Below, piece by piece: positions 21,292 through 29,907 of a stretch of 53,572 bases of DNA; the stretch's first letter is position 1, and every line of letters starts with the position of its first letter. The position numbers and the translations under genes are program-made. The DNA lies in the IMG/VR virus record IMGVR_UViG_3300028399_000009, positions 1 to 53,572 of that record; one strand, 5' to 3'. This stretch comes from a virus. The notes under the pieces were generated by a model. The model did no database searches. It was given only the letters and a program-made list of their open reading frames with translations, and was not told the DNA's origin.

Positions 21292-21879
21292 ATGGCATTA
21301 TATAAGAATTATTATGTTTTTCCTTATGAGCTGAAACCTATTTATCCAGCAACATATAATCTTTCAACAAATTATGTTTTACTTGGTAGAGACTGGCAGA
21401 AAAGAAGAAGATATTTGTTTGACAGATCTAAACAAATTCTGGAGTTTGAGTATGTATTTACAAATCTGCAGGATATCTGGGGATTAAAACAGTTTTTCTA
21501 TGATAGGAAAGGAAGATATGAACCCTTCTGGCTGAGAGGATATAAAACTCAAACACAGACAACAACCTCAGCAACAGCAACATCTACAAACATAACAGTT
21601 GTTTATAATTATGAAGATTATTATGTTGATAATTATGTTCTTCATATATACATACCATCAATTGATTTTTATGCAAAGGTTATAAGCTATACTAAAGGTG
21701 TGAATGATATAACATTAGGTCTGGATACTGCTTTGCCTGTTGATCTACCTGCTAATAGTGATATTGAGTATGTATATTTTGTTAGATTTGAAAGTGATAC
21801 CCTTGAGCTGGAATTCAGAAGATTGTGGGTTGCAGAAGGAAAGCTGTCATTTAAGTGGTTAGTGGAGGAAAGTCCATGA
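21292..21879 (+). CDS. Tail tip protein with FYDRKGRYEPFW motif
   Basis: A 195-residue protein with FEYVFTNLQDIWGLKQFFYDRKGRYEPFWLRGY, the hallmark of a family of small minor tail proteins found just upstream of BR0599/gpL-like genes. The rest is beta-rich. It ends 4 nt into the next gene (ATGA overlap), so the two are coupled. Confidence 0.65.
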   Translation: MALYKNYYVFPYELKPIYPATYNLSTNYVLLGRDWQKRRRYLFDRSKQILEFEYVFTNLQDIWGLKQFFYDRKGRYEPFWLRGYKTQTQTTTSATATSTNITVVYNYEDYYVDNYVLHIYIPSIDFYAKVISYTKGVNDITLGLDTALPVDLPANSDIEYVYFVRFESDTLELEFRRLWVAEGKLSFKWLVEESP

Positions 21880-22619
21880 GAGTGGAATTGTTTAAATTTA
21901 CAAGCAACTTGAATAACTGGCTGTATAATAATGGGACAACAAATATAACATTTGGAGGAGAAGTTTATGAAGGTATAGCTATTGAGAGAAGTGAAATAGA
22001 GGTGCAGGTTGATAAAGCAGAACTGACTATAAAAATGCCTTATGATAAACCACCTGCAAACCTTTTTAAATCCATTTACCCTTTTAACCTGAATATACAG
22101 ATTATTGACTATGAAAGTGGTATAACAATCTGGGTTGGTAAAGTTCTATCATGTTCTATTAATCTTGACAAAGGTGAAGCAGAGTTAAAATGTATAACAT
22201 CACAAATCCTGTTTGAGAATAATATTCCCAACAGAACTTACTCTATACCCTGTTCATGGGATCTCTATTCTCCTGAATGTGGTGTATTATCATCAAATTA
22301 TGTATTAACCCTGAATGTTGATGAACTTACAGTATCAGGAACACAAATATCTCATCCCTCAATAGGTAATTATGCTGATGGATGGTTCACTATGGGTTAT
22401 GTTGAATTACAATTTGAATACAATTTTATAACCAAACATGTAGGAGATACCATAACCATACTTTATCCCTTACAAACCCTTGATGAGAATAACATTATAA
22501 AAATCTATGCTGGCTGTGATAAAAAATTATCAACATGTAAAAATAAATTCAATAATTCTCCCAATTTTGGTGGTTTTCCTTTTATACCCAAAACTAATTT
22601 TTATACGGAGGGTTGGTAA
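21876..22619 (+). CDS. BR0599/gpL-like tail tip protein
   Basis: A 247-residue protein. The family marks are IPCSWDLYSPECGV, later IKIYAGCDKKLSTC, and the close NNSPNFGGFPFIP: four Cys in the arrangement used by lambda gpL-like proteins to bind an Fe-S cluster, plus the NFGGFPxIP end. ATG 21876 is chosen because GGAGG lies 7 nt upstream. The protein should sit at the tail tip between the tube and the J-like protein that follows. Confidence 0.82.
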   Translation: MRVELFKFTSNLNNWLYNNGTTNITFGGEVYEGIAIERSEIEVQVDKAELTIKMPYDKPPANLFKSIYPFNLNIQIIDYESGITIWVGKVLSCSINLDKGEAELKCITSQILFENNIPNRTYSIPCSWDLYSPECGVLSSNYVLTLNVDELTVSGTQISHPSIGNYADGWFTMGYVELQFEYNFITKHVGDTITILYPLQTLDENNIIKIYAGCDKKLSTCKNKFNNSPNFGGFPFIPKTNFYTEGW

Positions 22620-22621
22620 AT

Positions 22622-24949
22622 ATGGCATGGGGATGGATAGCACTTGCAGTTCTAACAATAGCAACATTAGTTATAACATATCTTTTATTACCCAAACCTG
22701 AAGATGAAGGCATGCAGAGACCCTCCACAAGAGAATTTGATTTTCCAAGTAATGATAGTGCAAGAGTAATAGGAGAAGTGTTTGGAAGTGTTCTGGTTTA
22801 TGGAAATTATATTTATGGTGGGAATGTCAGAAATGAACCCATAGAATATGATCCCGGTAAAAATCAGGATGAACAAATAGTTGGATGGAGCTGGCATGCT
22901 ACATTTGCAATAGCTCTGGCACACAAGATAGATAGATATGTTTACTACTATTTTGATGATAAAATTCTTGTAGATCTCAACATAACAACAAGTGGAACTA
23001 TGAAAAGTGTAATAACAGGCAGACAGGCTGATACATATGGTTCAGGAAAGAGAAATGGATGGTTAACATTCTACCTTGGTGATCAAACTTCTCCTGATCC
23101 TGTATTACAGAATAGAACAGGTGAAGATATTATTTATAAAAATATTGCCTATGTTGTTTTTGATGATGTCTTTGTAGGTGATAATGTCAGATCTACTCCC
23201 AAATATGGTTTTGTAGTGGAAAAAACAAGTCATGTTTCCTCAACCTATTTAAATCCTACTTATGCAAAAATATTTAATGGTATCTCTTATGATATAAACC
23301 CTGCTCATGCCATCTTTTATATCCTTTATGATATGTTGAAAATACCTATTAATATGATTGATGTTAACAGTTTTGATAGTGCATCTCAAACACTTTATAA
23401 TGAAGGTTTAGGTATTTCATTCATCATGGAAGGATCAAAATCTGCTAAGGAATGGATAAAAGAGATACTCAGACATATAGATGGTCTGCTGTTTTTTGAT
23501 GTTGAGACAGGTAAATATACATTAAAACTGATCAGAGATGGTGATCCTGTTGTCAGCACTTTTACTGATGATGATGTTAAAGATGTTCAGTTCTCAAGAC
23601 AGTCAGTTGAAGATTTATATTCCCAGATCATAGTTGAATATACAGATCTTGAAGGTAAAACTTTTGGTAGATCAGCAATAAAAACATGGATACCTTCTGT
23701 CAGGAAAATACTTGGTTTTGAAAGGTCTAATTCATTTTCATTCATGATGATAACCAATAAAAGTAATGCTAATAAAATACTGAAAAGATTAGTTAGAAAA
23801 ATGGCTTATCCTCTTGCAACATTAAAAATGAAAATACCCATAACAACCTCTCTTAAACTTGGTGATCTTATACAATTCTCATCAAATAGACTTGGTATAA
23901 ACAACATGGTCTTTAGGGTTATGAATATTGGTTATGATGAAGAGTATAAAAATTATATTGAGATTGAATGTGTTGAGGATATTTTCTCTATTGCTGATAT
24001 AGATGTAGTTGTTGAGGATACAGGTTTGGCATTACCACCTTCAACTGATACAGGTGTTATTAATAATGTTAAAATAATTGACAGCTATCAGGAGGTTAAT
24101 AAAAACCCATCATTTATAGCTTTATATACTGATCCTACTGGATATGCTTATGGTGTAAAAGTTTATGTTAATGGAGATTTAAAGAAGATATTACCTGTGA
24201 ATATTTATGCTCTGGGAACATTAGTTAATGATATTCCTTCTTATAATAGACCCGTTGACAGACAGACACAGATAATTGTCCAAAATGTGCAGGATATAAG
24301 AGGTGTAGCATTAACAGAACAAGCATGGCAGAAACTTGCTAACTCCATGCTGATAGATAATGAGATTATTGTTTTTAAAAATTGTCAGGATAATAATGAT
24401 GGAACATTTACAATAAGCAATCTTATAAGGGGAATACATGATACACAGATAACTTCTCATACTGCCAATACTGATGTGTGGTTTCTGTATATAAATTTAT
24501 CAGATCTTTACACAATCCAGATAACACCTACTAATACAACCTTAACTGTTGATCTTATACCTTTTAATGATTTTACAGATGGAACAGCAACAACAGTAAA
24601 TTATACTTATCAGTATAGACCTCAGAAGCCTTATCCTCCTTCAAATATAAAAGCAAGTGTAAGTGGTAGTGATACAACATTCACAATAGTTCCCTGTGTG
24701 AGACAGAAAGGTGCTGTTTACAGGAATGCTGATAGTATTGTTGCAGGTGAAGATGAGGGGGTTATGGAAGGAGTTATACAGGCTTCACCTGATAACTGGC
24801 AGACTGTTTTCACCCTTGACAGCAGTTATATACAATCTAACACAGGAAGACTTGTCTGGACAGCTTTGGGATATGGTGCTAATACTACATGGAGATTCAG
24901 AACATTAGCTAATGGTATGTATTCAGATGAGGTGATAGTGAATGTCTGA
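22622..24949 (+). CDS. J-like tail tip / host specificity protein
   Basis: A 775-residue central tail tip protein. The N-terminal hydrophobic segment (WIALAVLTIATLVITYLLL) is followed by a domain like the phage tail tip J core (SARVIGEVFGSVLVYGNYIYGG, HATFAIALAHKIDRYVYYYF, then AKEWIKEILRHIDGLLFFD and LKLGDLIQFSS). Fibronectin-like repeats may form the end. ATG 22622 is chosen, with GGAGGG 10 nt upstream. The last 8 nt overlap the acyl carrier protein gene, linking their translation. Confidence 0.82.
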   Translation: MAWGWIALAVLTIATLVITYLLLPKPEDEGMQRPSTREFDFPSNDSARVIGEVFGSVLVYGNYIYGGNVRNEPIEYDPGKNQDEQIVGWSWHATFAIALAHKIDRYVYYYFDDKILVDLNITTSGTMKSVITGRQADTYGSGKRNGWLTFYLGDQTSPDPVLQNRTGEDIIYKNIAYVVFDDVFVGDNVRSTPKYGFVVEKTSHVSSTYLNPTYAKIFNGISYDINPAHAIFYILYDMLKIPINMIDVNSFDSASQTLYNEGLGISFIMEGSKSAKEWIKEILRHIDGLLFFDVETGKYTLKLIRDGDPVVSTFTDDDVKDVQFSRQSVEDLYSQIIVEYTDLEGKTFGRSAIKTWIPSVRKILGFERSNSFSFMMITNKSNANKILKRLVRKMAYPLATLKMKIPITTSLKLGDLIQFSSNRLGINNMVFRVMNIGYDEEYKNYIEIECVEDIFSIADIDVVVEDTGLALPPSTDTGVINNVKIIDSYQEVNKNPSFIALYTDPTGYAYGVKVYVNGDLKKILPVNIYALGTLVNDIPSYNRPVDRQTQIIVQNVQDIRGVALTEQAWQKLANSMLIDNEIIVFKNCQDNNDGTFTISNLIRGIHDTQITSHTANTDVWFLYINLSDLYTIQITPTNTTLTVDLIPFNDFTDGTATTVNYTYQYRPQKPYPPSNIKASVSGSDTTFTIVPCVRQKGAVYRNADSIVAGEDEGVMEGVIQASPDNWQTVFTLDSSYIQSNTGRLVWTALGYGANTTWRFRTLANGMYSDEVIVNV

Positions 24950-25196
24950 TGTTATTAGAGAAGAGTTAATAAACCTGTTAGCTAACTACTGTGGTGTAAA
25001 TAAAAATGCTATAACATCATCAATAATATTAAAAAGTTTGGGTATAGATAGTCTGGCAGGTATTGAACTTGTTATGCTTATTGAGGATATTTTTAACATA
25101 AAATTAAATAATTATTATCTGAAACTTGATATGACCTTTGAAGATTTATATTTATTAATAAGTGAGGAGGTAAAGAAGAATGGCACTATTACCTAA
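24942..25196 (+). CDS. Acyl carrier protein
   Basis: An 84-residue protein with the full acyl carrier signature: LGIDSLAGIELVMLIEDIFNI. Ser37 in DSL is the expected phosphopantetheine attachment site, and the helical length and acidic helix II match AcpP (Ser36 in E. coli). It has a GAGGTGA ribosome binding site, overlaps the J-like gene by 8 nt and the next fibre gene by 17 nt, so it is a fixed part of the late operon. No acyltransferase or phosphopantetheinyl transferase is evident nearby; it would need host AcpS. Possible roles are acylation of a tail protein or interference with host lipid synthesis; both are inference. Confidence 0.9.
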   Translation: MSDVIREELINLLANYCGVNKNAITSSIILKSLGIDSLAGIELVMLIEDIFNIKLNNYYLKLDMTFEDLYLLISEEVKKNGTIT

Positions 25197-25605
25197 TGGT
25201 CTGGAAACTATTGAGATAGGAGCAACAGCATGGAGGGATATATGTAATAACAATTTTATCTTACTTGATGGTTATCTGAGTGGTCATGGTTCAGGTCTGA
25301 GTGCTGATATGTTAGATGGTTATCATATAAGTTATCTTCCCATAACAACAGTAACAGCTGATACAACTTTAACAGATTTACAGCATACCATACTTGTTGA
25401 TGCTTCAGGAGGTAATATAACAATAACTTTGCCTGCACCTACATCAGGGAAAGTTTATGTTATAAAAAAGATTGACAGTTCTACAAATACTGTAACTGTA
25501 GATGCTGGAACACAAACAATAGATGGAGTAAATACTAAAACATTATCCGCTCAATATGAAGTTTTAAGGATACAGTCAGATGGTAGTAATTGGTATGTTA
25601 TTTAA
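25180..25605 (+). CDS. Tail fibre protein, short
   Basis: 141 residues. The C-terminal 90 follow a motif common at phage fibre ends: TTLTDLQHTILVDASGG, NITITLPAPTSGKVYVIKKID, VTVDAGTQTIDG, QSDGSNWYVI. These beta segments form trimeric fibre tips in relatives. The N-terminus (IEIGATAWRDICNNNFILLD) resembles fibre attachment segments. It starts inside the acyl carrier protein gene with AGGAGG upstream. Confidence 0.75.
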   Translation: MALLPNGLETIEIGATAWRDICNNNFILLDGYLSGHGSGLSADMLDGYHISYLPITTVTADTTLTDLQHTILVDASGGNITITLPAPTSGKVYVIKKIDSSTNTVTVDAGTQTIDGVNTKTLSAQYEVLRIQSDGSNWYVI

Positions 25606-25617
25606 AAGGAGGTTAGA

Positions 25618-25968
25618 ATGGCTGATGTAACAAAAGAGGAAATGCTTTTCTGGCTAACAGAAACTTATTCTGATATTGAAGTTTTATTTAATGGTTATGA
25701 AAATTTTTTAACATTTTTATTTATAATTAAAAAATATATTAAAAATGAGTTATCTCAGGCTGATAAAATTTTATTAGAAAATTTGTTAAATAATTTATTT
25801 CAGGTATTGGACAATATAGAGATTAATTATGAGAATGATAAAAATAATATTTTGAATAATAATATTTATGCTGTTAGTATGAGAGGATCAGATAGGAAAC
25901 CTAATATTAATTGGCAGGAGATAAGAAATATGAACAGAAGAAGAATTAATATATTAGGAGGTATATAA
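25618..25968 (+). CDS. Helical hypothetical protein (116 aa)
   Basis: Not recognised. Predicted helical and Asn-rich (LLENLLNNLFQVLDNIEINYEND), with a basic C-terminus (NMNRRRINILGGI). It lies among fibre genes and ends on the first base of the next ATG. It could be a fibre chaperone or a connector; nothing decides. Confidence 0.5.
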   Translation: MADVTKEEMLFWLTETYSDIEVLFNGYENFLTFLFIIKKYIKNELSQADKILLENLLNNLFQVLDNIEINYENDKNNILNNNIYAVSMRGSDRKPNINWQEIRNMNRRRINILGGI

Positions 25969-26738
25969 TGGAAATATTTAGTTTACAAACAAAAATTCAT
26001 CTTGAAAAAAGATTATATCAAGCATTATATATAAGTGATACTGCTAATGTAGATGGTGCTTGGACAGAATTTAGTCCAACAGGAACAGTCATTAATTATG
26101 ATGTTTGTGGTTTCTATTTGTTTATTGGTAATGCATCTATTAATGCAGATTTTTGGATTGATATTGGTATATCTACTGATGGAACAAATATAACTGAAAT
26201 TTTATCTGATTTTAGGGTGCATAAGGATTCTGAATATCAAATTTTTAAAACTTATATTCCTTTAGAAATACCAAGAGGATATAAATTATATGGAAGAGTA
26301 AAAGCAAATATAGGAGATTCAACAAGGCGTATTTTATGTTATATATATCCAATATTTAAACCTTTTTCATCTATAAGTTATTCTGCATATAGAAGATATG
26401 ATATTCAAGTAAATACTGATGGATATGCAACTATATATGAAGTTGTTAATCCTGTTCCTTTTAATGTAAAACATATAATAATTTCAACATCTCTTGCTCA
26501 AATTAATACAGCACCCTCTCTTCAAAGTGTTTATTTTAATTTATATTTAGGTCAAAGTGGATCAGAGCAAATAATTTATAATTTTAGAAATGTAGTGCAT
26601 TCAACAACAGATGAAATTACTCCTAACTTATTATCTTTTCCTGTTTATATACCAAAAGGTGAAAGATTAGCAATTAGCCATGATCCTTTATCAACAACAG
26701 AAACAGTTTTTGATTATTCAATATATTTATTTGGTTAA
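25968..26738 (+). CDS. Virion/fibre protein (256 aa)
   Basis: Beta-rich 256-residue protein with no clear motif (FWIDIGISTDGTNITEI, KLYGRVKANIGDSTRR). The composition and location between fibre genes suggest a receptor-binding or appendage component. TTAGGAGGTATATA gives its ribosome binding site. Codon use is more AT-rich than in neighbouring tail genes (TTA, ATA, AGA). Confidence 0.55.
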   Translation: MEIFSLQTKIHLEKRLYQALYISDTANVDGAWTEFSPTGTVINYDVCGFYLFIGNASINADFWIDIGISTDGTNITEILSDFRVHKDSEYQIFKTYIPLEIPRGYKLYGRVKANIGDSTRRILCYIYPIFKPFSSISYSAYRRYDIQVNTDGYATIYEVVNPVPFNVKHIIISTSLAQINTAPSLQSVYFNLYLGQSGSEQIIYNFRNVVHSTTDEITPNLLSFPVYIPKGERLAISHDPLSTTETVFDYSIYLFG

Positions 26739-28948: not shown

Positions 28949-29293
28949 ATGTCAGCAGTTAAACCTATAACATCTGTTAAAGGAGATAGTCTATTTATTG
29001 ATGTAAAGGTTAATACTGACTTAACAAACTGGAAGATTAGAGCTGAACTTTATGATAGTAATAATAATGTTAAAAAGGGAAGCAGTAATGTATTGAATGG
29101 AGATATAACACAGATAGATATTACAGATCCTCCTAATGGCATGTTTACTATAAAATTCTATCCATCAGAGACAGTGTTGTTTGATAATGCATACCTTGAG
29201 GTTGAACTTGAAGATCCAGATGGAAATAAATATACTGTTATTCAAACCAAAGTTTATTTCAGAGCAGAGAAGATTACTTGGGATGCTGTTTAA
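28949..29293 (+). CDS. Ig-like appendage protein (BppU N-terminal-like)
   Basis: A 114-residue beta-sandwich-like protein (GDSLFIDVKVNTDLTNWKIRAELYD, then MFTIKFYPSETVLFDNAYLEVELEDPDGN) resembling the immunoglobulin-like domain at the start of BppU-type baseplate proteins. It is the last gene of the rightward late operon, and its 3' end overlaps the convergent o-spanin gene by 20 nt. Confidence 0.65.
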   Translation: MSAVKPITSVKGDSLFIDVKVNTDLTNWKIRAELYDSNNNVKKGSSNVLNGDITQIDITDPPNGMFTIKFYPSETVLFDNAYLEVELEDPDGNKYTVIQTKVYFRAEKITWDAV

Positions 29294-29630
29294 TAATTAT
29301 TTCTAATTCTCTTGCATAATTATCCAGTTTATATAAATTTTTCAATAAAATTTTTGCATTATTTTTATCTACACAATAATACTTATTTATTTTTATCCAT
29401 TTTACTTCCTCTAATACAGGTCTTTCAGGTATATTTTCTATTTTATGCTTAATATATACAGGTTCTTTAATTACAACAGGTTTATTATTTTCTTTTTTAG
29501 CTGAACAACCAAATATTGTGGAAAAAAGTATAATAAGTATAAAAATAAAATAACCTATAATGACAGATAAAGCTACAACCCTGATGATTTCAAGTATCTT
29601 ATAACCTATCAATTTCATCAAGTTTCTCAT
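29274..29630 (-). CDS. Probable outer-membrane spanin (Rz1-like)
   Basis: A 118-residue protein with an N-terminal hydrophobic segment ending in FSTIFGCSAKKEN, a lipobox-like cysteine, then a Pro-rich stretch (KPVVIKEPVYIKHKIENIPERPVLEE). This is the layout of Rz1-type lipoprotein spanins, although the hydrophobic segment is long (a signal-anchor is also possible). It overlaps the preceding coiled-coil membrane gene by 32 nt in another frame, as Rz/Rz1 pairs do. AGGAGGAAAAAGTTAG precedes ATG 29630. Confidence 0.6.
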   Translation of the reverse strand: MRNLMKLIGYKILEIIRVVALSVIIGYFIFILIILFSTIFGCSAKKENNKPVVIKEPVYIKHKIENIPERPVLEEVKWIKINKYYCVDKNNAKILLKNLYKLDNYARELEIIIKQHPK

Positions 29631-29907
29631 CTAACTTTTTCCTCCTTTCTAACAGTTTTTTACATATATTATCTTTATTTTCAATTTCTTTTTTAAGCTG
29701 TTTAATAATGTTCAAATATTTGTCTTCCAAAGATTTCATATTCTCAATTAAAATTTTATTTTCTTTTTTAATATTTTCATTCATTATATTTAATTTTTCA
29801 ATCTGTTGATCCTGATAAACAATATAAAATGCTAATAAAACAATAATGATTATATTACTTGCGATTAGTAACATTTTTAATGACCTCACCAATTTTATTA
29901 ATCCCAT
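29599..29907 (-). CDS. Probable inner-membrane spanin (Rz-like)
   Basis: A 102-residue protein with one N-terminal membrane helix (ASNIIIIVLLAFYIVYQ) and a long periplasmic coiled coil (IKKENKILIENMKSLEDKY, KKEIENKDNICKKLLERRKK). This is the form of the inner-membrane partner of a two-component spanin. AGGAGGTTTGT lies before ATG 29907. It is part of the distal lysis block (lysozyme, holin, Rz, Rz1) on the minus strand. Confidence 0.65.
   Translation of the reverse strand: MGLIKLVRSLKMLLIASNIIIIVLLAFYIVYQDQQIEKLNIMNENIKKENKILIENMKSLEDKYLNIIKQLKKEIENKDNICKKLLERRKKLDEKLDEIDRL

Follow-up and report, generated by a model that had tools for sequence, protein, structure and literature searches.

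Phage acyl carrier proteins (ACPs) are already known and have been noted for years as products of auxiliary genes, with no demonstrated function. The ACP gene described here lies between a baseplate hub gene and a fibre gene, a position that is unusual and absent from the related tails examined. Together with the ACPs that unrelated phages carry in or next to their virion or packaging operons, this raises the question of whether such a protein is a part of particle assembly or a late modifier of host metabolism. If it did serve assembly, a tailed-phage particle lipid-modified by a carrier protein would mean a biochemical step that is new to phage assembly. The stretch of DNA analysed, called the window below, corresponds to one linear virus record of IMG/VR, 53,572 bases long and with a GC content of 28.7%. 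An ORF scan located portal, capsid, tail tube and lysozyme genes, and ThyX, a dUTPase, a deaminase and a family B polymerase are also encoded. The ends carry no repeat and the right end runs into an open frame, so the record is probably incomplete and an acyl-transfer partner could lie outside it. The features around the ACP gene are as follows.

21855–22619, + strand: GTA-type baseplate hub/tail assembly protein of the same late operon (Phage_BR0599; phrog_778, E = 8e-56)
22613–24949, + strand: GTA-type/J-like baseplate hub protein, upstream of the ACP gene (phrog_1101, E = 6e-99; Phage-tail_3)
24942–25196, + strand: ACP, 84 residues, pI ~4.5, ATG start (Pfam, PHROG, AlphaFold2 and PDB matches)
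25041–25055, + strand: GIDSL motif, residues 34–38, with the Ser37 codon at 25050–25052 (sequence; the serine opens helix II of the model)
25180–25605, + strand: tail-fibre-like protein, downstream of the ACP gene (phrog_37034, E = 4e-8); its C-terminal region is common to tail proteins of several phages
25618–25968, + strand: 116-residue protein, proposed ACP partner (no convincing Pfam or PHROG family)
25968–26738, + strand: 256-residue protein, proposed ACP partner (no Pfam or PHROG family)

The ACP ORF begins MSDVIREELINLLANYCGVNKNAITSSIILKSLGIDSLAGIELVMLIEDIFNIKL and its motif region is LGIDSLAGIELVMLIE; residue 37 is a serine and the GIDSL is intact, as the preliminary description of the locus had read it. 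The identification as an ACP made there is borne out by profile searches. The protein belongs to Pfam family PF00550 (PP-binding), which it matches with 31.7 bits (E = 1.9e-7) against a curated cut-off of 20.8, and it is the sole PP-binding match in the entire record. It also belongs to PHROG 5934, ‘acyl carrier protein’ (E = 9e-8), the match of residues 7–77 to positions 17–88 of the 93 in the profile spanning most of the protein. A profile HMM built on 27 further phage ACPs, with the window sequence left out, recovered the window ACP alone among all window frames (E = 7.5e-18). The AcpP equivalog family TIGR00517 was rejected, with a score of 27.5 bits against a cut-off of 70.45.

Structure prediction, suggested earlier as a check on this identification, gave an ACP fold. 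The AlphaFold2 model, calculated with an alignment of 26 ACPs as input, has a pLDDT of 89.7 and the helical bundle of PF00550, with helices at residues 2–17 (I), 37–51 (II) and 66–80 (IV), whilst helix III is not assigned. Helix II starts at Ser37, the attachment serine, as in PF00550. Of the PDB matches that Foldseek and VIA-align list for the model, nearly all are carrier proteins. The Foldseek matches to ACPs have a probability of 1.00 and TM scores of up to about 0.8, with E values of at least 0.011 for this very short chain; VIA-align gives Z scores of up to 12.3 with carrier proteins.

The Pfam score of 31 bits falls below the best ACP score in each of the 48 other viral records listed (34 to 64 bits), which places the window ACP among the most divergent phage ACPs in this comparison. 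Its identity to any compared ACP is at most about 40%. Four residues, D36, S37, E42 and E48, are invariant across 28 aligned phage ACPs, and L38 is so too in a second alignment; the four argue for a protein that is modified and not merely structural. Nearly all of the other aligned phage ACPs carry an Asp after the DSL, which is missing from the window ACP. Judged by its sequence and predicted structure, the 84-residue ORF is a genuine, highly divergent stand-alone ACP.

With the housekeeping AcpP (TIGR00517) it has in common the fold, the DSL serine and an acidic helix II, but it is one residue shorter before the motif and has Ala in place of the Asp after DSL. The phage ACPs of PHROG 5934 (moron/auxiliary metabolic category) are like it in being small, stand-alone proteins of tailed phages with a DSL motif, and they too have no acyl-transfer partner annotated alongside. 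One of these, gp32 of Erythrobacter phage vB_EliS-R6L, is 33% identical to the window ACP and lies in a replication/methyltransferase region, whereas the window ACP lies between hub and fibre.

The ACP ORF overlaps the hub ORF, which ends at 24949, by 8 nt and the fibre ORF, which starts at 25180, by 17 nt, in agreement with the overlaps reported previously. The DNA reads GAGGTGA immediately 5′ of the ACP ATG and GAGGAGG immediately 5′ of the fibre ATG; with these putative ribosome-binding sites the ACP ORF looks translated and coupled. Between 22500 and 29700 the + strand has no site resembling a terminator, and sites resembling promoters are no more frequent than in shuffles. Since no promoter or terminator of its own can be recognised and it overlaps both neighbours, the ACP is most likely made late, its translation coupled to that of the hub and fibre genes. 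The GC content of the gene is 0.267 and its GC3 is 0.235, similar to those of this phage's genes. The preliminary description had called the gene fixed in the late operon. Its place in the late tail operon stands; that it is fixed there gained no support from the searches, which found no close relative covering the hub–fibre junction.

In a Pfam scan of ~85 ORFs of the window at E = 0.001, no acyltransferase, phosphopantetheinyl transferase, ketosynthase or acyl-ACP ligase was matched, consistent with the earlier statement that no acyltransferase was visible. The two proteins put forward there as acyltransferase partners, at 25618 and 25968, resemble no known enzyme. The first has no convincing Pfam or PHROG family, no phage match and no useful PDB match, and its single-sequence AlphaFold2 model is poor (pLDDT of 50). 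The second likewise has no Pfam or PHROG family, phage match or useful PDB match.

The reading that we favour, and hold to be probable though by no means strongly so, is that the protein is a late auxiliary stand-alone carrier which is activated by the host and acts with host enzymes. Given the intact attachment motif, host AcpS would most likely put phosphopantetheine on Ser37. No partner for acyl transfer was recognised among the ORFs scanned, so the holo-ACP would most likely act in trans, together with enzymes of the host or with host proteins that bind ACP, and as a late auxiliary carrier it may shift host acyl or lipid metabolism. The seat beside the tail-tip genes would then reflect operon placement and not a tail function. 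Of the three roles proposed earlier, use of the host acyl pool fits best; the sole positive evidence for the other two, acylation of a tail protein and incorporation into the tip, is position. Use of the protein by host FAS enzymes is uncertain because it is far from the AcpP of FAS and lacks the Asp after DSL. In the literature, the ACPs of Erythrobacter phage R6L (PMC5463345), roseobacter prophages (PMC8224337), Vibrio phage R16F (PMC10152775) and Alteromonas phage R22Y (PMC11705849) are treated as products of auxiliary metabolic genes or as being of unclear function.

A sequence that is very divergent and has yet kept its motif would also suit a protein with no part in carrying acyl chains along a pathway; it would instead bind partners of the host ACP, with effects on the handling of the chromosome, on the stringent response or on Fe–S assembly. 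Host ACP partners include MukB, SpoT and IscS. Other phage ACPs adjoin SMC-like gp46 genes (L023, L087) or a NifU-domain gene (L021), echoing known partners, whereas the window has no SMC-like or NifU neighbour. The divergence may abolish binding to the host, and we consider the decoy or regulator unlikely.

A role in the tail is suggested by the overlaps with the hub and fibre genes on either side: the holo-ACP might hand an acyl group, or another group held as a thioester, to a protein of the tail tip or fibre, be built into the tip, or help in assembly. When viral contigs were scanned with the ACP alignment, at least 48 loci were found, and in about five other phage groups the ACP gene is within or beside virion or packaging genes. 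It is found between gp14 and gp15, between gp15 and TerL, and one gene away from two fibre-like genes (L038, fibre–fibre–X–ACP, in which the fibre-like genes and a 307-residue gene lie 5′ of the ACP; L038 represents the group of similar large records L038–L043). In L015 the ACP is immediately 5′ of TerL, and in L046/L047 one small ORF separates it from the terminase (ACP–X–TerL). These ACPs are like that of the window in their late-gene placement, and the groups could point to a late, virion-related role. They differ in their neighbours (neck, sheath stabiliser, terminase or fibre-like genes) and in phage type, and none has close sequence kinship with the window ACP. It is recurrence in virion modules that we report and not enrichment, virion genes being a large share of any phage genome.

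The variety of these neighbours counts against a dedicated tail component, as does the best tree, on which the virion-module ACPs do not form one clade (5 changes against a shuffled mean of 5.7, with 149 of 500 shuffles as low); the tree is weak, and it neither places the window ACP nor tells one origin of the virion-module ACPs from several. Elsewhere, the Erythrobacter, Xanthomonas and Achromobacter phage ACPs adjoin methyltransferase, RusA, gyrase, tRNA or topoisomerase genes, and a further one adjoins a ParB gene. As phage ACPs also occur beside genes for gyrase, gp46-like proteins, ParB or replication, a role specific to the tail cannot be concluded. An ACP was retrieved once by virion mass spectrometry, from a Kuttervirus (PMC10892097), which would favour a place in the particle, but one such retrieval is no more than contamination would give. 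In phage SH19, related to Kuttervirus, the ACP gene is near ImpD and far from the late tail-spike genes (PMC3220722). No description of an ACP acting in tail assembly was found in the literature searched, a search that covered papers outside subscription.

The related tails weigh further against it. The profile search for ACP genes beside related hub genes, recommended in the preliminary description, found none in 25 hub loci (L057–L081), with the window recovered as positive control. The loci come from six isolated phages and nineteen viral contigs, several of the contigs being short, and they are distant relatives at 22–28% identity. Thus the ACP is no standard component of this tail type, and these 25 loci, of which several are short and none is close, give no sign of an ACP module at the tail tip that is conserved together with the hub gene. 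A search for further GIDSL-type ACPs yielded none at a tail tip. With no ACP at these loci, no acyl-transfer enzyme recognised among the ~85 ORFs and such varied contexts in other phages, the earlier proposal of tail acylation or tip incorporation has lost ground and is possible but quite improbable. An acyltransferase that uses acyl-ACP and is unrecognised, encoded by the host or located beyond the incomplete record would be compatible with HlyC-like acylation of a tail protein, which is possible. We judge it highly doubtful that the ACP is a dedicated virion-assembly part, whether as a host-activated acyl loader or a tip component, with the ACPs of neck, sheath and terminase operons in other phages acting alike; the wider idea of an ACP devoted to the tail, assembly helper included, is distinctly unlikely.

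That the gene is a neutral passenger, a host-derived ACP gene that entered the operon and has no role under selection, would fit with our having found no relative with an ACP at this position, but is very improbable, since the retention of motif and fold at an identity of at most about 40% points to long selection, and the phage-like GC and GC3, the tight overlaps and the ribosome-binding sites also stand against it.

Searches of viral contigs for close relatives of the window ACP and of the window hub found none. A capsid search matched only L082 (72%, 8 kb) and L008 (89%, 4.6 kb), neither of which extends to the ACP. L008 (1–4601) is a Micavibrio-binned contig with a GC content of 29% and a capsid 89% identical to that of this phage; it is probably a misbinned phage contig, and no hub or matching tail DNA was found in its Micavibrio bin. 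The best-covered tblastn match in phage records, L004, is a fragment with bacterial genes in which the ACP, as read from the translation, is part of a large AMP-ligase/ACP/acyltransferase-like fusion, and it was set aside for these reasons.

Several of the other phage loci have gene orders worth recording. In L033 (7234–9431) and L030, from uncultured T4-like phage, the ACP lies between the T4-type neck protein gp14 and the tail-sheath stabiliser gp15, and in L033 gp16- and gp17-like terminase genes follow the ACP–gp15 pair. The order in L021 (216–4197) is gp15, a 140-residue ORF, ACP, a NifU-domain gene (E = 1.2e-21), a 154-residue ORF and TerL; the ACP beside a NifU domain recalls the link of ACP to Fe–S assembly in mitochondria. 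In L023 (875–4116) the ACP comes right after an SMC/RecN-like gp46-type gene with a gp47-type phosphoesterase, and there are two PP-binding matches in tandem. It also comes right after an SMC/RecN-like gp46-type gene in L087 (28–565), as read from the sequence. These SMC-like neighbours recall the binding of ACP to MukB. In the window itself, two small overlapping ORFs at 29274–29907 on the − strand adjoin the phage lysozyme gene and resemble an Rz/Rz1 spanin pair, which would indicate a Gram-negative host.
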